Source: Chloroflexota bacterium | Lineage (GTDB): Bacteria; Chloroflexota; Limnocylindria; P2-11E | Length of the DNA: 47,774 nucleotides | NCBI GenBank assembly: GCA_005889295.1 | Contig: VBEY01000059.1 | Span: 1-47,774, forward strand | Direction of reading: 5' to 3' | Shown here: positions 4,807 to 23,983 of the stretch, piece by piece | Layout of the letters: every line of letters starts with the position of its first letter | Position numbering within the stretch: the first letter of the stretch is position 1 | The notes under the pieces: generated by a model | What the model saw: the letters and a program-made list of their open reading frames with translations, nothing else | The model's database searches: none | What the model was told of the DNA's origin: nothing | Translations under genes and position numbers: made by a program

Positions 4807-5303
4807 GGTTCGGAGCGCTGCTGCTCGCGGCCGTTCTGCTCGCCTCGGCATGCATCGACAATCGGGTCGTCGTGACGACGCCGACGCCGACTCCGGTCCG
4901 AACGACAGCCGCGCCGAGCCCGAGCCCGAGTCCCACGCCCAGCCCGACGCCGACGCCCACTCCGGCGCCGACGCCGCTCCTGTCGGCGCGCGGCGGGATC
5001 CTCGTGAAGGAGCCCCTCGCGAACTCGCGCGTTCGCAGCCCCCTCACCGTCAGCGGCGACGCGAGCGTGTTCGAGGCGGCGCTCATCTGGCAGCTGACCG
5101 ACACCGCGGGTCGCGTCCTCGCGAGCGATTTCACCACCGCGACGGCGGGCGCACCGGCCAAGGGAACGTTCACGATCACGGCGTCCTACAAGGACCCGCC
5201 GTCCGAGATCATCGGATTCGCCGAGGTCTTCACGCGCAGCCCGAGGGACGGAACGATCGATGAGATCGTCCGCGTCCCGCTCATCTTCGCCGCAGCGCGC
5301 TGA
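4803..5303 (+). CDS. Lipoprotein with Gmad2 immunoglobulin-like domain
   Basis: A 166-residue exported lipoprotein. The signal peptide ends in the lipobox LLASAC, with C17 as the acylated cysteine. Residues 24-60 are a Pro/Thr/Ser repeat linker made of PTPT and PSPS units. The remainder matches the Gmad2 domain pattern: VKEPLANSRVRSPLTVSG, a VFEAALIWQL strand, and an ending SPRDGTIDEIVRVPLIF. Gmad2 domains occur in spore-germination GerM-like and other surface proteins; its binding role here is unknown. The GTG at 4803 overlaps the thrB stop (GTGA). The gene ends by overlapping the ATG of birA by one base. Confidence 0.85.
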   Translation: MRFGALLLAAVLLASACIDNRVVVTTPTPTPVRTTAAPSPSPSPTPSPTPTPTPAPTPLLSARGGILVKEPLANSRVRSPLTVSGDASVFEAALIWQLTDTAGRVLASDFTTATAGAPAKGTFTITASYKDPPSEIIGFAEVFTRSPRDGTIDEIVRVPLIFAAAR

Positions 5304-6061
5304 TGCGCCTCGCGCTCCTGGCGATCCCGGCGGTGCGGAGCGCGCTATCGCTCGAGATCAACCGAGACATCGAATATCACGCCGCGATCGCCAGCACCCA
5401 GGATCGGGCCCGAGCCCTGGCGGCGTCCGGATCCGGCCCGCGTGTCGTCGTCGCCGATCACCAGACCGCGGGACAAGGCACCCGTGGGCGCCCCTGGCAC
5501 GCCCCGGCCGGCACGAGCCTCCTCGCGTCGTGGCTCTTCCGCCCCGCTCCCGCTGAGCCAGGGCTTTTCGCCCTTCTCGCGGGCGTCGCCGTCTCGCGGG
5601 CGCTTCAGCGGCTGGGCCTTCGAGACGCCTCCCTAAAATGGCCCAACGACGTCGAGGCTGGCCATAAGAAGGTCGCCGGAGCACTCGCCCATGCGACCAC
5701 TGATGGGGAAGGCGGTTCGCTGGTGCTGGGGATCGGCGTGAACGCGCATCAGCAGCTCGAGGACTTCCCTCCGGAGCTGCGCGGGACAGCGACGTCGCTG
5801 GCCCTCGCCGGGCACACCGTCGATCGCCTCGTCCTCTTCGTCGACCTCACGCGCGAGCTCGAACGCGTCGCCGCGCCTTCCGAGCGGCAACCCGCGCTCG
5901 ACGAGTGGCGCCGGCGCTCCACGCTCCTGGGCCGCGAGGTCGAGGTGACCCGTGAGGGCAGACCGGTCGTGCGCGGCGTCGCTCGGGACATCGCCGAGGA
6001 CGGTGCGCTCCTGGTCGAGTCCGAGCGCGTCGTGGTCGGCGACGTGCGAGTCATTGCATGA
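5303..6061 (+). CDS. birA: Biotin-[acetyl-CoA-carboxylase] ligase, single-domain (no DNA-binding domain)
   Basis: A 252-residue class I biotin protein ligase that makes biotinyl-AMP and attaches biotin to the carrier protein AccB. The signature GQGTRGRPWHAPAGTSL lies near residues 52-68, KWPNDV near 112-117, and the C-terminal SH3-like domain with its RGVARDIAEDGALLVE turn is at the end. There is no N-terminal winged helix, so it should not act as the biotin-operon repressor as E. coli BirA does. The position three genes before accDA fits its role in supplying biotinylated carrier for acetyl-CoA carboxylase. It overlaps degV by four bases. Confidence 0.92.
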   Translation: MRLALLAIPAVRSALSLEINRDIEYHAAIASTQDRARALAASGSGPRVVVADHQTAGQGTRGRPWHAPAGTSLLASWLFRPAPAEPGLFALLAGVAVSRALQRLGLRDASLKWPNDVEAGHKKVAGALAHATTDGEGGSLVLGIGVNAHQQLEDFPPELRGTATSLALAGHTVDRLVLFVDLTRELERVAAPSERQPALDEWRRRSTLLGREVEVTREGRPVVRGVARDIAEDGALLVESERVVVGDVRVIA

Positions 6062-6924
6062 GCGAACGCAGTGTCATCGTCATCGACGGCAGCTCGGCGA
6101 TGTCGGACCAGGTGAAGCGCGAGTTCAATTTCCGACTGCTCCCGATCCACGTGCTTTTCGGCGACGAGGACTTCACGCCCGGCGTCAACATGACCCCCGC
6201 GGAGTTCTACGCGAAGCTCGCATCGTCGAAGACCCCGCCGACGACCGCCGCGCCATCGCTCGGCGAGTGCGTGGAGATCTATCAGACCCTCGTCCGCGAG
6301 GGGTTCCGTTCCATCCTGGTGATCACGGTCATCAACGAGGCATCGGTCACTCACACCGTCGCGAAGACCGCGGCGCAGCAGGTGAGCGGCGCAAGTATTG
6401 AGGTCGTCGACTCGCGAACCACCGCCGGCGGCATCACGCTCATCGCGACCGCGTGCGCCCGTATGCTCCGTGACGAACGTGGCTTCGACGCGGCGGTAGC
6501 GCTGGCGCGGCGTCTCGCCGGTCGGGTCCAGATCCTTGCGCTGATCGATACGCTCGAGTACCTCCGCCGTGGAGGCCGGGTGTCCGGAGCCCAGGCCGCC
6601 TTCGGCGCGCTCCTTTCCATCAAGCCGATCGTCGAGGTGAAGGACGGTGATCGCGTCCTCATCGACAAGGTCCGCACTCGTGAGCGTGGCGTCGAGCGGC
6701 TCAAGCAGCTCATCGAGGAGCGCGTCCCACCGGGCTCGCGCATCCACGCCTGCGCGATGCACACCAACCACCCCGAGCGCGCTCACGTCCTTGGCGAATG
6801 GGTCCAGCAGCGGTTTCACTGCGTCGAGTACTGGACTGCCGAGGCGGGCCCCATCATTGGGACGCACACCGGCCCCGGCGTCGCGGGGTTGTGCTGGTAT
6901 CGCGAGGAGGATGCTCGGGCGTGA
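6058..6924 (+). CDS. DegV family fatty-acid-binding protein
   Basis: A 288-residue DegV family protein (PF02645). These cytoplasmic proteins bind long-chain fatty acids and, in Firmicutes, act as FakB subunits presenting the fatty acid to the FakA kinase. The N-terminal IVIDGSSAM strand, the TSQPS-like motif reading TTAAPSLGEC (near 61-70), the DSRTTAGG segment (about 117-124) and the TLEYLRRGGRVSGAQA motif (about 163-178) are all present. No fakA-like gene is in the window. Its location between birA and accD supports a lipid-related role. It overlaps birA upstream and accD downstream by four bases each. Confidence 0.9.
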   Translation: MSERSVIVIDGSSAMSDQVKREFNFRLLPIHVLFGDEDFTPGVNMTPAEFYAKLASSKTPPTTAAPSLGECVEIYQTLVREGFRSILVITVINEASVTHTVAKTAAQQVSGASIEVVDSRTTAGGITLIATACARMLRDERGFDAAVALARRLAGRVQILALIDTLEYLRRGGRVSGAQAAFGALLSIKPIVEVKDGDRVLIDKVRTRERGVERLKQLIEERVPPGSRIHACAMHTNHPERAHVLGEWVQQRFHCVEYWTAEAGPIIGTHTGPGVAGLCWYREEDARA

Positions 6925-7772
6925 GGCTTCGTAACCCGTTCGGTCGAAAGACGAAGGAGTTTCCGTCGCATCTCTGGACGCAGTGTCCGAGCTGCGGCGA
7001 GATGCTGTTCAACAAACAGCTCGACCGCAACCACAACGTGTGCCAGAAGTGCGGCCATCACTTCAAGCTCGGAGCGCTCGCGCGCATCGACCTCCTGGCC
7101 GATGCGAAGTCATTCAGCGAGACGGACGCCGACATGGTGTCGTCCGATCCGCTCGGGTTCGTCGACAGCAAGCCATATCCGGAGCGCATCGCGGCGGCGC
7201 AGGCGAAGAGCGGACACAAGGACGCGGTCCTGACCGGGGACGCGCAGATCTCGGGCATCCCTGTCGTCCTCGCGGTCATGGATTTCGAGTTCATGGGCGG
7301 GTCGATGGGCAGCGTGGTCGGCGAGAAGCTCACCCGGGCGGCCGAGCGCGCGTACTCGGCGCGCAAGCCGCTCGTCATCGTCTCCGCGTCCGGGGGCGCG
7401 CGCATGCAGGAGGGGACGATCGCGCTCATGCAGCTCGCGAAGACCGTCGCTGCGGTCGCACGCCTCGACGACGCGGCTATCCCATTCATTAGCGTGCTCA
7501 CGGACCCGACGACGGGCGGCGTCCTGGCCTCCTTCGCGTCGCTCGGCGACATCATTCTCGCCGAGCCCGGCGCGCTCATCGGCTTCTCCGGTGCTCGTGT
7601 CACCAGCGAGACCATCGGGGAAAAGCTGCCGAAGGGTTTCCAGCGAGCCGAGTTCCTGCTCGAGCACGGCTTCGTCGACCAGGTCGTCCCGCGGTCGCAG
7701 CTCAAGGAGCGCATCGCATTCTTCTTGAACGCGTTCCGCGTCGCGGGTCAAGACCTGCGCTGGAGCCTTTGA
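6921..7772 (+). CDS. accD: Acetyl-CoA carboxylase carboxyltransferase subunit beta
   Basis: A 283-residue beta subunit of the carboxyltransferase that moves the carboxyl group from carboxybiotin to acetyl-CoA. The N-terminal zinc ribbon has the expected four cysteines, C22, C25, C41 and C44. The crotonase-like core carries SASGGARMQEG and the VLTDPTTGGVLASFASLGD segment typical of AccD. The GTG at 6921 overlaps the degV stop (GTGA) and gives the usual short leader before the zinc ribbon. It is followed three bases later by accA, its obligate partner. Confidence 0.95.
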   Translation: MRLRNPFGRKTKEFPSHLWTQCPSCGEMLFNKQLDRNHNVCQKCGHHFKLGALARIDLLADAKSFSETDADMVSSDPLGFVDSKPYPERIAAAQAKSGHKDAVLTGDAQISGIPVVLAVMDFEFMGGSMGSVVGEKLTRAAERAYSARKPLVIVSASGGARMQEGTIALMQLAKTVAAVARLDDAAIPFISVLTDPTTGGVLASFASLGDIILAEPGALIGFSGARVTSETIGEKLPKGFQRAEFLLEHGFVDQVVPRSQLKERIAFFLNAFRVAGQDLRWSL

Positions 7773-7775
7773 GCG

Positions 7776-8762
7776 ATGTCCATGCTCGATCGCATCGTCG
7801 GCTCGCGGCGCGCCGCGGAAGGCAACGGCCATCTCGCGGTCGAAGCGGGACTCATCACCGACGCGACGCAGCTCGCGTCGACCCGACCGACGCCATGGCA
7901 GACGGTGCAGACCGCGCGCAACATCGCGCGCCCGCACGCGCACGACATCATCAGCCGGGTCTTCGATCGCTTTCAGGAGCTGCACGGGGATCGTGCTTTT
8001 CGCGACGACCCGGCCATCATCGGCGGGATCGCCGAGCTCGGTGGGCGCCCCGTCGTCGTCGTCGGGCAGCAGAAGGGCTCGTCGACCGAGGAGAACATCG
8101 AGCGCAACTTCGGCATGCCGTATCCCGAGGGCTATCGCAAAGCGATGCGCCTCTACCGCCTCGCGCAGAAATTCCACGTTCCGCTCATCACGCTGGTGGA
8201 TACCCCGGGCGCCTATCCCGGTCCCGAGGCCGAGGAGCGGGGACAGGCCGAGGCGATCGCCTCGAGCATCCAGCTCATGACCCGCCTCGCCGTCCCGGTG
8301 GTGGTCGTGGTGCTTGGCGAGGGCGGCTCGGGTGGCGCGCTCGCGCTCGGTGTCGGCGACGTCGTGCTCGCGCTCGAAAACGCGACGTACTCGGTGATAT
8401 CACCCGAGGGTTGCGCGGCGATCCTCTGGCGAAGCGCCAGCGAGGCGGAGCGCGCGGCCGTCGCGATGAAGCTCGCCGGACCCGATCTTCTGGACACCGG
8501 CGTCGCCGACGCGCTCATCCGTGAGCCGGCGGGTGGCGCGCACACCGATCACGACGCGACCGCCGCGGCGATCAAGACCGCGCTCATCGCGCAGCTCGAG
8601 CGGCTCTCACGTGTGCCGGTCGCGGACCTGCTCTCGCTGCGCTACGAGCGCTTCCGCTCGTTCGGCATGTTCGTCGAGCCGAGTGGCGGCACCGCGCCCG
8701 CGCCGCCGCGGCCGTGGTGGCGGCGGATCCTACGGAATCCCTTGCCGAAAGACGCGCTATGA
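7776..8762 (+). CDS. accA: Acetyl-CoA carboxylase carboxyltransferase subunit alpha
   Basis: A 328-residue alpha subunit of the carboxyltransferase, forming the alpha2beta2 enzyme with AccD. The core motifs LHGDRAFRDDPAIIGGIA, LVDTPGAYPGPEAEERGQ, LGEGGSGGALALGVGD and the ISPEGCAAILWR segment are all in order. The N terminus has the usual amphipathic region before the ARPHAHDII helix. The last 30 residues are a Pro/Arg-rich extension. The stop overlaps the ATG of the next gene (ATGA), so the carrier-like protein that follows is probably made in coupling with this subunit. Confidence 0.95.
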   Translation: MSMLDRIVGSRRAAEGNGHLAVEAGLITDATQLASTRPTPWQTVQTARNIARPHAHDIISRVFDRFQELHGDRAFRDDPAIIGGIAELGGRPVVVVGQQKGSSTEENIERNFGMPYPEGYRKAMRLYRLAQKFHVPLITLVDTPGAYPGPEAEERGQAEAIASSIQLMTRLAVPVVVVVLGEGGSGGALALGVGDVVLALENATYSVISPEGCAAILWRSASEAERAAVAMKLAGPDLLDTGVADALIREPAGGAHTDHDATAAAIKTALIAQLERLSRVPVADLLSLRYERFRSFGMFVEPSGGTAPAPPRPWWRRILRNPLPKDAL

Positions 8763-9166
8763 GCGACAACGATCCGTTCCTTGGACTCGTCGATGACCTC
8801 CTTCGCCTGGAGCTGCCCGCCGGCCTGCACGCGGTCACGATCGAGGTCGAGGCGGATGGATTCGCCGTCTCCGTTTCGCGGCACGGGCAGGCCGGGACCG
8901 CGACCGCGCCGGCCGCGGAGCGCGAACAGGGTCCGACCGAGAAAACGCAGCGCGTGCACGCGACGACGGTCGGCGTGTTCAGCACGGCGCGAGAGTGGAC
9001 CACCGGCGATGCGGTCGCGCGGGGCGATGTCCTTGGCGGGATCCAGTCCCTTGGTCGCATCGCCGAGATCAGCGCGCCCGCCGACGGCGAGATCCGCGAG
9101 GTCCTCGTGACGGGTGGTGCGCCGGTGGAGTACGGGCAGGCGCTCTTCGTCATTGCCCTCCGCTGA
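8759..9166 (+). CDS. BCCP-like protein lacking the biotinylated lysine (BADC-like)
   Basis: A 135-residue protein with the full layout of a biotin carboxyl carrier protein. An N-terminal LVDDLLRL..TIEVEADGFAVSVSRHG stretch parallels LVAELLER..ELEVKRGGVRVRVAKDG of the true AccB at 23525-23983. A charged linker follows, then a biotinyl/lipoyl domain (about 68-135) ending in GAPVEYGQALFVI. At the hairpin where AccB has EAMK, this protein has QSLG (residues 96-99), so glycine replaces the biotin lysine. It cannot be biotinylated there. It overlaps accA by four bases. A structural or regulatory subunit of acetyl-CoA carboxylase is my inference, by analogy with plant BADC proteins. Confidence 0.82.
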   Translation: MSDNDPFLGLVDDLLRLELPAGLHAVTIEVEADGFAVSVSRHGQAGTATAPAAEREQGPTEKTQRVHATTVGVFSTAREWTTGDAVARGDVLGGIQSLGRIAEISAPADGEIREVLVTGGAPVEYGQALFVIALR

Positions 9167-9428
9167 CCGAATCGCCGTCAAGGTCCACGAGTCCGGCGAC
9201 GGCCACGTCGCGCTGGTCACGGTGAACGATCGCGTCACGACGACGCACCGGGTGCGCATCTCGCCCGCCGAACGCGAGCGCTTCGGCGGCGACGACGTCG
9301 CGGACCTGGTCAGGCGCTCGTTCGAGTTCCTCCTGGCGCGCGAGGCGAACAGTTCGATCCTTCGCGAGTTCGACCTCTCGACGATCGAGCGGTATTTCCC
9401 CGAGTACGCGCGCGAGATTCGGAGCTAG
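9153..9428 (+). CDS. Conserved small protein, function unknown
   Basis: A 91-residue soluble protein with no membrane segment or signal peptide. It contains a beta-rich first half (IAVKVHESGDGHVALVTVND) and a helical second half with the EFLLAREANSSILREFDL and IERYFPEYAREIRS segments. That ending is typical of small conserved proteins of unknown role in Chloroflexota and Actinomycetota. The TTG at 9153 is the last start that keeps the conserved part and overlaps the end of the carrier-like gene by 14 bases; GTG codons at 9114 and 9117 are alternatives. It is the last gene of the thr-birA-acc block and converges on the membrane protein, sharing its last four bases. Confidence 0.65.
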   Translation: MPSADRIAVKVHESGDGHVALVTVNDRVTTTHRVRISPAERERFGGDDVADLVRRSFEFLLAREANSSILREFDLSTIERYFPEYAREIRS

Positions 9429-11216: not shown

Positions 11217-11554
11217 GGGTCACCAAGACGTACGTCCGCTTGCTGGCGGTCGACGTCGCAAAGACCGCGGGGTTCTATGAACGCGCCCTCGGACTCATCG
11301 CTCGTTCTGAGTCACCAGCGTGGACCGAGCTCTCCGCGGACGGCGGCGTGGTCGCGCTCCACGACGGTGGCGCGAAAGCGCCGACTGAGACGCACCTCGG
11401 TTTCGAGGTCGACGACATCACCGCGGCCTGCGCGGCGGTGCAACGCGAGGGCGGCGAGGTCGTCGCGAGACCGGTCGATCAGTACGGCATCCTCGTCGCG
11501 CGCGCCGCGGACCCCGACGGGAATCGCTTCTGGCTTGCGCAGGTGTCACCGTAA
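11213..11554 (+). CDS. VOC (glyoxalase/bleomycin-resistance) family protein
   Basis: A 113-residue single VOC module with the paired beta-alpha-beta-beta-beta units: TYVRLLAVDVAKTAGFYERALGL at the front and the THLGFEVDD and ADPDGNRFWLAQV strands at the back. Candidate metal ligands are H61 in THLGFEV and a late glutamate/aspartate, but the ligand set is incomplete compared with glyoxalase I. The substrate is unknown. Its place between fabD and accC, overlapping both, hints at a role linked to acyl-CoA metabolism such as a methylmalonyl-CoA epimerase-like activity, but nothing in the sequence proves it. Confidence 0.8.
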   Translation: MRVTKTYVRLLAVDVAKTAGFYERALGLIARSESPAWTELSADGGVVALHDGGAKAPTETHLGFEVDDITAACAAVQREGGEVVARPVDQYGILVARAADPDGNRFWLAQVSP

Positions 11555-12915
11555 TGACCCCGATCGAGAAGGTCCTCATCGCGAATCGCGGCGAGATCGC
11601 GGTGCGGATCATCCGCGCCTGCCGCGAGCTCGGCATCCAGTCGGTCGCCGTGTACAGCGAAGCGGACGCGCACAGCCTCCCGGTCCATCTCGCCGACGAA
11701 GCGATCTGCATCGGACCGGCGAACGCGCGCGAGTCGTACATGAACATTCCCGCGATCATCTCCGCGGCGCTCCTGTCGGGCGCGCAGGCGATCCATCCTG
11801 GGTACGGCTTCGTTTCGGAGAACGCCGACTTCGCCGAGGTCTGCAAGGACCACGGCCTCGTGTTCATAGGCCCGCCGCCCGAAGTTCTGCGGCTGTTCCA
11901 CGACAAAGCGCAGACACGGCTCGAGATGAAGCGCGCCGGGATGCCGGTCATTCCCGGTTCGGACGGTCCGGTGCGCAACGTTGCCGAGGCGCTGCGCATC
12001 GCCGAAGCGATCGGCTATCCGGTGATGCTGAAGGCGAAAGCCGGCGGCGGCGGGCGCGGGATGCGCAAGGCGATCTCGCCCTCCGAGCTGCAGCGCCTCT
12101 GGCCGCAAGCCGCGAGCGAGGCGAGGGCGTCGTTCGGCGACGACGGCATCTACGTCGAGCGGTGTCTCGAGGGCGTGCGGCACGTCGAAGCGCAGATCGC
12201 GGTCGATGAGTCGGGGCGGGGCATCTGCCTCGGCGAGCGCGAGTGCTCGATCCAGCGTCGCAACCAGAAGATGATCGAAGAAGCGCCTTCGGCCTCGATC
12301 AGCGAGAGCCTGCGACAAGAAATCGCGAAGCTCGCGGTCGACGCGGCCGTTCGCTCGGGCTACCGCAACGTCGGGACCTTCGAGTTCCTCGTCGACGCGC
12401 AGAACAAGCCGTATTTCATCGAGGTGAACTCGCGGATCCAGGTCGAGCACACGGTGACCGAGATGACCACCGGGATGGACCTCGTGAAGGAGCAGATCGC
12501 GCTCGCGTCCGGCGAGCTCCTCTCATTCAGCGAGGAGCAGATCTGGGTGCACGGCCACGCCATCGAGTGCCGCATCAATGCCGAGGATGCTGAGGCGAAC
12601 TTCGCTCCCTCGACCGGCGTGCTCACGAGCTGGCTACCTCCTGCCGGACCGGGAATTCGCCTGGACTCGCACTGTTTTCAGGGCTACGAGGTCCCGCCGT
12701 ATTACGACTCGCTCCTCGCGAAGGTGATCGCGTGGGGCCGCGACCGGCACGAGGCGGTCGCCCGCATGCAGCGCGCTTTGGACGAATTCACGATCGTTGG
12801 CGTGACGACGAATATCCCGGCGCACAAGAAGATCCTCGCGAGCGATCTCTTCCGCTCCGGGCAGGTGACCACGCACTTGATAGATACTGTCGGGGTCGAT
12901 GCGCTCGCCGGCTGA
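11554..12915 (+). CDS. accC: Biotin carboxylase subunit of acetyl-CoA carboxylase
   Basis: A 453-residue ATP-grasp biotin carboxylase that carboxylates biotin on AccB using ATP and bicarbonate. Motifs are intact: IANRGEIAVRIIRAC (9-24), HPGYGFVSEN (81-90), the glycine-rich ATP loop KAKAGGGGRGMR (160-171), the biotin-binding QRRNQKMIEE, and EVNSRIQVEH (290-299) with the catalytic arginine. Length matches stand-alone AccC. The ATG shares one base with the VOC stop codon. It lies in a different cluster from accDA and from accB, so the carboxylase is built from three loci within this window. Confidence 0.96.
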   Translation: MTPIEKVLIANRGEIAVRIIRACRELGIQSVAVYSEADAHSLPVHLADEAICIGPANARESYMNIPAIISAALLSGAQAIHPGYGFVSENADFAEVCKDHGLVFIGPPPEVLRLFHDKAQTRLEMKRAGMPVIPGSDGPVRNVAEALRIAEAIGYPVMLKAKAGGGGRGMRKAISPSELQRLWPQAASEARASFGDDGIYVERCLEGVRHVEAQIAVDESGRGICLGERECSIQRRNQKMIEEAPSASISESLRQEIAKLAVDAAVRSGYRNVGTFEFLVDAQNKPYFIEVNSRIQVEHTVTEMTTGMDLVKEQIALASGELLSFSEEQIWVHGHAIECRINAEDAEANFAPSTGVLTSWLPPAGPGIRLDSHCFQGYEVPPYYDSLLAKVIAWGRDRHEAVARMQRALDEFTIVGVTTNIPAHKKILASDLFRSGQVTTHLIDTVGVDALAG

Positions 12916-22274: not shown

Positions 22275-23525
22275 ATGCAGAACGGCGAGCGCCGCCGTGT
22301 CGTGGTGACGGGTCTCGGCATGATCACCCCCCTCGGCTCGACGGTGGAAAAGACGTGGGACGGCGTCGTCGCGGGGAGGAGCGGGATCGGACCGATCACC
22401 CGCTTTGACCCGACGGGCCTCGAAACGACGATCGCCGGGGAGGTCCGCGACTTCGATCCGCTCGACTACATGGATCGCAAGGAGATCCGCCGCTCCGACC
22501 GCTTCGTGCACTTCGCCGTCGCGTCCGCCGGTCAAGCGCTCAAGTCGGCCCGTCTCGAGATCACGCCAGAGCTCGCGCCCCGGATCGGCGTCGCGTTCGG
22601 GTCGGGCATCGGCGGTGTCGAGACACTCGTCGAGCAGGTCCTCGTTCACGACAAGGATCCGCGGAAGGTTTCCCCGTTCCTGATTCCGATGATGATCATC
22701 GACATGGCGGCCGGCGAGATCGCGATGAAGTACCGCGCCAAGGGCCCGAACATGGGCCACGTTTCGGCCTGCGCGTCGAGCGCGAACGCCGTTGGCGAAG
22801 CGGCGGAGATCATTCGTCGCGGGCAGGCCGATGTGATGCTCGCTGGCGGAGCCGAGGCGGGCCTCATCAAGATCGCGATCGGGGCGTTCAACCAGGCACG
22901 TGCCCTCTCCACGCGGAACGACGCGCCCGAGAAGGCCTCGCGCCCATTCGACAAGGATCGCGACGGATTCGTCTTCAGTGAAGGCGCGGGCTGCCTCGTG
23001 CTCGAGGACCTCGAGTTCGCGCGGGCCCGCGGCGCGACGATCCTCGCGGAGTTCCTTGGCTACGGGATGTCGGCCGACTCGTACCACGTCACGGCGCCGC
23101 CGCCCGGGGGCGAGGGCGCGGTGCGCGCGATGCGCATGGCCATCGCGGACGCTGGCGTGAAGCCCGACGCGATCGGCTACGTGAACGCCCATGGCACGTC
23201 GACACAAGCGAACGATGGCGCCGAGACCGCCGCGCTCAAGACGGTCTTCGGCGATCACGCGCGCACGCTCGCGGTCTCGTCGACCAAATCGATGATCGGA
23301 CACACGCTCGGCGCGGCCGGGGCGATCGAAGCCGCGCTCTGCATTCTCGGGATGCGAAACGGGGTCCTTCCACCGACGATCAATCAGGTCACCCGCGACC
23401 CCGAATGCGATCTCGACTACGTCCCGAACCGCGCGCGCAAAACGAAGGTCGACGTGTCGCTCTCGAACTCGATGGGGTTCGGCGGGCACAACGTCGCCCT
23501 CGTCATCCGTCGGGAGGCCGCCTGA
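22275..23525 (+). CDS. fabF: 3-oxoacyl-ACP synthase II
   Basis: A 416-residue elongating condensing enzyme that adds malonyl-ACP units to acyl-ACP. The thiolase-fold catalytic triad is complete: C166 in SACASS, H306 in NAHGTST and H343 in GHTLGAAGA. The opening VVVTGLGMITPLG and the closing NSMGFGGHNVALVI are standard for FabF. Length is normal. The stop codon TGA shares a base with the ATG of accB, so the condensing enzyme and the biotin carrier are coupled; fabF next to accB is less common than accB next to accC. Confidence 0.96.
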   Translation: MQNGERRRVVVTGLGMITPLGSTVEKTWDGVVAGRSGIGPITRFDPTGLETTIAGEVRDFDPLDYMDRKEIRRSDRFVHFAVASAGQALKSARLEITPELAPRIGVAFGSGIGGVETLVEQVLVHDKDPRKVSPFLIPMMIIDMAAGEIAMKYRAKGPNMGHVSACASSANAVGEAAEIIRRGQADVMLAGGAEAGLIKIAIGAFNQARALSTRNDAPEKASRPFDKDRDGFVFSEGAGCLVLEDLEFARARGATILAEFLGYGMSADSYHVTAPPPGGEGAVRAMRMAIADAGVKPDAIGYVNAHGTSTQANDGAETAALKTVFGDHARTLAVSSTKSMIGHTLGAAGAIEAALCILGMRNGVLPPTINQVTRDPECDLDYVPNRARKTKVDVSLSNSMGFGGHNVALVIRREAA

Positions 23526-23983
23526 TGCCGGATCCCCGCAAGGTCCGCGCCGACGCGAACGCGCTCGTCGCGGAGCTTCTCGAGCGCCTCGCGCGCGACG
23601 AGGTCAGCGAGCTGGAAGTGAAGCGAGGCGGCGTCCGTGTGCGCGTCGCGAAGGATGGCGCGCGTGTCGCGGCGAGCGCCCCCGGCGCTTCCGCCCCCGC
23701 GCCGCACGTGCCGTCAGCGGTGCCAGCCCAGCCGGCGACGGAGCTGCCGACCGTCAATGCGCCGCTCACGGGGATCTTCTACCGGGCCTCGTCGCCTCAG
23801 ACGGAGGCCTTCGTGCAGGTCGGTTCGAAAGTGGAATCTGGCGACGTCATCGGCCTGATCGAGGCGATGAAGCTCTTCAACGAGATTCGCTCGACGGTTT
23901 CGGGAAGGGTGCGCCGTATCTTCGCCGAGAACGGCCAGCTCGTGCGCGCACATCAACCCTTGCTCGAGGTCGAGCCGGTATGA
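23525..23983 (+). CDS. accB: Biotin carboxyl carrier protein of acetyl-CoA carboxylase
   Basis: A 152-residue BCCP. The N-terminal helix region (1-40) is followed by an Ala/Pro linker (about 48-75) and the biotinyl domain (78-152). The biotinylation site is K116 in EAMKLFNEI (113-121), and the domain ends with GQLVRAHQPLLEV. The protruding thumb region IFYRASSPQTEAFVQVGS, typical of true acetyl-CoA carboxylase BCCPs, is present. It is the substrate of the BirA encoded at 5303-6061. It overlaps fabF by one base and the YHS gene by four bases. Confidence 0.96.
   Translation: MPDPRKVRADANALVAELLERLARDEVSELEVKRGGVRVRVAKDGARVAASAPGASAPAPHVPSAVPAQPATELPTVNAPLTGIFYRASSPQTEAFVQVGSKVESGDVIGLIEAMKLFNEIRSTVSGRVRRIFAENGQLVRAHQPLLEVEPV

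Follow-up and report, generated by a model that had tools for sequence, protein, structure and literature searches.

A lysine-less biotin-carrier homologue of most sampled Chloroflexota lineages, probably a structural part of acetyl-CoA carboxylase

The closest described parallel to the protein reported here comes from the plastid heteromeric acetyl-CoA carboxylase (ACC) of plants. BADC1-3 are homologues of the biotin-carrier protein (BCCP) that lack the biotinylation motif and occur alongside true BCCP. Reports describe binding to BC/BCCP and an action on the thumb side of BCCP; one group considers these proteins a 'glue' and others an inhibitor (PMC11926652, PMC7712654). As far as we found in the open-licence literature, such a biotin-less part was previously known only from plants, where its role is disputed; the open-licence papers covered yielded no lysine-less BCCP from bacteria, no bacterial BADC and no description of a Chloroflexota BCCP of this kind.

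Bacterial complexes in which the carrier itself has a structural part have been described. The BC-BCCP complex of E. coli owes its cohesion to the BCCP cores, with Lys122 some 40 A away from the active site (PMC11077971). In BC1 of C. aurantiacus, the bridge between two biotin carboxylase dimers is an eight-stranded barrel made of BCCP hairpins, not of the core; the core is dispensable for barrel formation, and the barrel raises biotin carboxylase activity (PMC11077971). A further relevant comparison is the actinobacterial epsilon subunit (AccE/PccE), which is a non-catalytic assembly subunit of carboxylases.

The DNA analysed here (the window) is the whole stretch of 47,774 nucleotides from contig VBEY01000059.1 of a Chloroflexota bacterium in the class Limnocylindria (hereafter, the class). 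It carries a gene cluster in the order birA - degV - accD - accA - X - small ORF - (opposite-strand ORF) - fabD - small ORF - accC, where X is the protein under study, and a separate fabF-accB pair. The features are as follows:

5303..6061, plus strand: birA-like biotin protein ligase, the first gene of the cluster (Pfam; order kept in relatives)
6921..7772, plus strand: accD (Pfam; start placed by conservation and by a GTGA overlap with degV)
7776..8762, plus strand: accA, carboxyltransferase alpha (Pfam ACCA, 5e-117)
8759..8762, plus strand: ATGA, the 4-nt overlap of the X start with the accA stop TGA, suggesting translational coupling (sequence; 46/64 class loci)
8759..9166, plus strand: X, a lysine-less BCCP-like protein of 135 aa plus stop (sequence, Pfam, relatives, profile)
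8831..8884, plus strand: N-terminal beta-hairpin of X, residues 25-42 (AF2, moderate confidence; profile-aligned with the E. coli and C. aurantiacus BCCPs)
8945..9160, plus strand: biotinyl-like domain of X, residues 63-134 (AF2 pLDDT over 93; Foldseek)
9044..9055, plus strand: QSLG, X residues 96-99, in place of the biotin motif EAMK, with Gly99 at the lysine position
9125..9139, plus strand: VEYGQ motif, X residues 123-127, common to lysine-less and lysine-bearing AccB1
11554..12915, plus strand: accC, biotin carboxylase (Pfam)
22275..23525, plus strand: fabF-like ketoacyl synthase, coupled to the true accB
23525..23983, plus strand: true AccB (AccB2 lineage, see below), EAMK, with Lys116 at 23870-23872

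The preliminary description of this DNA had taken X for a biotin-carrier paralogue without the biotin lysine whose ATG overlaps the accA stop, and both statements hold. The translation of X reads GGIQSLGRIAEI at the place where AccB has GLIEAMKLFNEI, the Pfam Biotin_lipoyl match of 9e-8 exceeds the gathering score, and BLASTP aligns X with the AccB of the window at 28% identity over the biotinyl region (E 5e-7). The start lies in the ATGA whose 4 nt are common to both genes; an alternative GTG start at 8714 is without support from relatives. It had also been claimed that X and AccB share their N-terminal region, which pairwise BLAST does not recover, but which profiles and modelling do. For instance, the X family profile matches E. 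coli BCCP (4hr7_B) at 1.3e-20 over its whole length, including the N-terminal domain, and the C. aurantiacus BCCP chain (8HZ4) at 8e-12. X is thus homologous by profile, in its N-terminal hairpin region, to the BCCP of C. aurantiacus, a member of the same phylum, but the latter is fused to BC and biotinylated (Lys553), whereas X is free-standing and lysine-less. Like bacterial AccB/BCCP (TIGR00531), X shows full-length homology, an N-terminal helix-hairpin, a biotinyl fold and VEYGQ; it differs in the lost biotin lysine, the missing thumb and a TIGR00531 score of 37.9 bits, below the cut-off of 115.2 (the true AccB of the window, at 108.8, is itself slightly under). Because the ExMK lysine is absent, with QSLG or another xLG in all class members read, X is rejected as a functional bacterial AccB/BCCP.

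According to the AF2 model, X is predicted to have an N-terminal helix and hairpin, at moderate confidence, followed by a biotinyl (barrel-sandwich) fold; its Foldseek neighbours in the PDB include 1bdo (rmsd 1.8 A), 4hr7 and Arabidopsis BCCP1 (9a87). The modelled layout of the window's true AccB is the same. The thumb segment has 8 residues in 18 of the 18 class members compared, and 14 (Y..SP..PFV) in all 71 rows compared from lysine-bearing AccB1, AccB2 and carriers outside the phylum. Lysine-less copies from other classes mostly retain its length of 14, with the Y..SP consensus lost.

X is conserved throughout the class. Its orthologues (50-83% identity) extend through the genus, family and order, where they adjoin accA and carry SLG or TLG (120 relatives). 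The arrangement in the window's own family is accD-accA-X-fabD-accC, and three more class families have accD-accA-X-accC with VDVLG, VEMLG, IDVLG and similar motifs. The preliminary description had named restoration of the lysine in close relatives, as a sign of sequence error, and loss of the gene from the side of accDA as findings that would speak against it. The lysine is missing, with G in its place, in all class and order members read, so sequence error is rejected, and every intact contig preserves the accD-accA-X-accC linkage. Among 64 class loci, a set in which some genomes appear twice, 46 share the 4-nt overlap of accA and X.

In the class search, X is found at an E-value of at most 1e-25 in 48 of the 56 genomes that are at least 90% complete. 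Eight such genomes fall under the threshold (G023, G065, G061, G081, G084, G082, G080, and G484); X is nevertheless present in G081, and G084 has a fragment of it at a contig edge. Six class genomes without a clear X (G005, G018, G023, G025, G061, and G065) were examined: accA is missing from the assembly in four of them, including G023 and G065, one contig ends within accA, and that of G061 ends inside X itself. True absence of X in these six is therefore rejected.

Substitution rates indicate purifying selection on both domains, so X is a functional protein. Within the genus the whole gene has a dN/dS of 0.23 (accA, 0.12). The ratio is lowest in the former biotin hairpin, at 0.06, followed by the biotinyl-like domain (0.14) and the N-terminal domain (0.17), and reaches 0.48 in the linker. 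The most constrained domain is hence the one that has lost the catalytic residue. In one metagenome-assembled genome (MAG), accA has an in-frame stop (L041:4021-4995), which is probably an assembly error.

Beyond the class, 301 genomes of the phylum were searched with two profiles, one of X (A1) and one of the true AccB (A2), and about 100 loci were retrieved and inspected. Two lineages of carrier emerge: (i) AccB1, found at pepP-efp-[B]-xseA or, in the window's class, at accDA-[B]-accC; and (ii) AccB2, found behind fabF (fabF-[B]), with the lysine in all AccB2 read. Classified from the fetched loci, 48 genomes combine a lysine-less AccB1 with a lysine AccB2, and 12 have an AccB1 with the EAMK lysine; these counts are descriptive, since they come from sampled, partly incomplete MAGs of related families, and they leave out 37 further genomes with lysine-less AccB1 that lack a fetched second locus. 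By family, lysine-less AccB1 with AccB2 occurs in 14 (16 with two less certain) vs. 7 with lysine AccB1. No genome among those classified has the lysine in both AccB1 and AccB2, and a dedicated search of the 12 lysine-AccB1 genomes found no fabF-linked AccB2. Extra matches there belong to long (fused) reading frames, except for short ones, of which the four read stand in other operons; a hidden second AccB2 is rejected. Two class genomes (G033 and G053) have X and no AccB2 match in the phylum profile search, which may reflect missing contigs.

The residue at the lysine position of lysine-less AccB1 is G, N, R, D, Q, or H. Outside the class, these proteins mostly stand at efp-[B]-xseA, the place of the lysine accB of other Chloroflexota, rather than with accDA, so the operon link with accDA is largely class-specific. 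Two loci place both carriers behind accC: accA-accC-[lysine-less]-[lysine AccB] in one genome (G314; carriers at L260:1982-2880) and accC-[lysine-less]-[lysine AccB] in another (G302; carriers at L263:2061-3002). This tandem order ties the pair to one enzyme. Both are large-genome Chloroflexota, and apparent biotin-synthesis genes lie beside the second tandem. The lysine-less carrier is thus seen far beyond the window, in most sampled Chloroflexota lineages, and the class and phylum searches reject X as an oddity of a single genus. The reciprocal lysine pattern of AccB1 and AccB2 looks like that of a duplicated carrier dividing its roles.

In a tree of 138 BCCPs, calculated by quick search from 147 columns after removal of the hairpin columns, AccB2 forms nearly one group and the deep forks are without resolution. 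A topology in which the 51 lysine-less Chloroflexota proteins form a single clade within the bacterial AccBs is not rejected by the AU test (0.91), and its likelihood exceeds that of the unconstrained quick search; a single old loss of the lysine in Chloroflexota is possible. The motif and the tree together suggest that the X of the class descended from the efp-locus AccB1 and moved later to accDA. A wide spread in other phyla is rejected within a biased sample: in 40 genomes reached via relatives there, all second carriers read keep the lysine. Genomes around a Hydrogenedentota MAG hold six lysine-less AccB-like carriers, most of which adjoin accC (L227/L185, L228-L231, and L233); motifs of the carriers associated with this group include VMDVK, SMEIT, ALGIS, TVGIK, and VLGHL, and they are possibly separate cases outside Chloroflexota. 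At locus L079 a lysine is present two residues further along, with no separate lysine AccB detected.

We propose that X serves the AccC-AccB subcomplex as a dedicated subunit without catalytic function, BADC-like and probably stoichiometric, which acts as 'glue' rather than as a conditional inhibitor, and assign this reading a probability of roughly 0.55. By comparison of genes, X is homologous to BCCP over its full length, lacks the biotin lysine, stands beside accD, accA, and accC, and coexists with a lysine AccB of a second lineage, all of which supports a subunit. A structural carrier subunit is suggested in particular by three traits of X: its hairpin, a core that lacks both biotin and thumb, and a gene placed among those of the enzyme. 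The N-terminal beta-hairpin of X would enter the AccC-AccB subcomplex, the biotin-free, thumb-less core would fill a structural carrier site, and AccB alone would shuttle the carboxyl group; the resulting mixed AccC-AccB-X subcomplex would have X acting in assembly, in the 'glue' sense proposed for plant BADC. A role for the hairpin only is argued against by the biotinyl-like core, which is the most conserved part of X, though decay would be expected there; the core must consequently do something beyond what this reading accounts for. The largely class-specific operon link with accDA, and G033 and G053 with their missing AccB2 match, also weigh against the reading. More broadly, the lysine-less carrier of most sampled Chloroflexota lineages is probably a structural part of the enzyme. 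Tentatively, and with somewhat less than even confidence, most Chloroflexota classes may have an obligate BCCP pair, in which AccB2 carries the carboxyl group and lysine-less AccB1 holds the complex, a state fixed once AccB2 was acquired and an independent bacterial instance of the BADC principle. Compared with BADC1-3, X is bacterial, lies in an operon with accDA/accC, has no plastid setting and has its thumb deleted in the class; at the level of sequence X resembles BADC, being a BCCP homologue without the biotin motif in a genome with a true BCCP, and we liken it to BADC without classing it as one (the trees contain no plant proteins).

The preliminary description had suggested that X, like BADC, may be an inactive carrier with a part in regulating or assembling the enzyme, and that true AccB is the competing active form. 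The inactive carrier fits the comparative evidence; competition fits less well. X as a competitive regulator would displace AccB from AccC and lower malonyl-CoA synthesis, as some groups propose for BADC. The shared fold, the lost lysine, and the published inhibitory view of BADC (PMC7712654) agree with this, and a conserved biotinyl-like core would suit a protein that occupies an AccB site. However, the thumb deleted in X is kept in all lysine-bearing AccBs compared, so X is not a plain AccB mimic, and the overlap with accA and the presence of X in every intact class locus suggest constant stoichiometry instead of conditional expression. Because X is probably co-translated with accA and is present in all those loci, a constitutive structural subunit fits better, and we consider competition unlikely.

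That the former biotin hairpin is the most conserved stretch of X could alternatively mean that X has left the carboxylase for another role, e.g., as a binding partner of a signaling protein or a metabolite, or in connection with the DegV or FabD products, and a DegV protein is indeed encoded in the cluster. On the other hand, X is tied to the carboxylase by the tandems in which a lysine-less copy and a true AccB follow accC and by the reciprocal lysine pattern of AccB1 and AccB2, which makes such a departure rather improbable. The position of class X between accA and accC, coupled to accA, would equally suit a linker of the carboxyltransferase (AccDA) to AccC, in the role of the actinobacterial epsilon subunit; lysine-less copies outside the class are mostly away from accDA, however, and X has no AccE-type family match in Pfam or NCBIfam, being unrelated to AccE as far as those libraries show, so that a linker seems a shade less probable still. 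A decaying relic or sequence error, to which the lost catalytic residue might point, can practically be dismissed, as X is intact in scores of genomes, under purifying selection, with hairpin and VEYGQ kept.

X offers a simpler and independent system in which to decide what a lysine-less BCCP subunit does, i.e., whether it is an inhibitor or a glue. If the structural subunit reading is true, a fifth subunit would join the standard bacterial AccABCD picture. For annotation, the gene at the accB position in these genomes is often not a biotin carrier.

Several neighboring genes and carriers deserve mention. Upstream of accD, at 5303-7772, a biotin protein ligase gene and a DegV-family (fatty-acid-binding type) gene are joined by short overlaps, and the order birA-degV-accD-accA-X is kept across the family and order; the presence of DegV in this operon may connect ACC with the supply of fatty acids. 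The small ORF after X (9171-9428, ~85 aa) shows 54-83% identity in many family members and no significant match in a Pfam search. Besides the AccC of the cluster, the source genome has two further biotin carboxylase genes that resemble those of other carboxylases. Finally, AccB-like carriers with IIEVMKLM occur at L372:1544-2173 and L324:1294-1845, next to an accC-like gene in the former and a carboxyltransferase-like gene in the latter, and perhaps belong to another two-subunit carboxylase.
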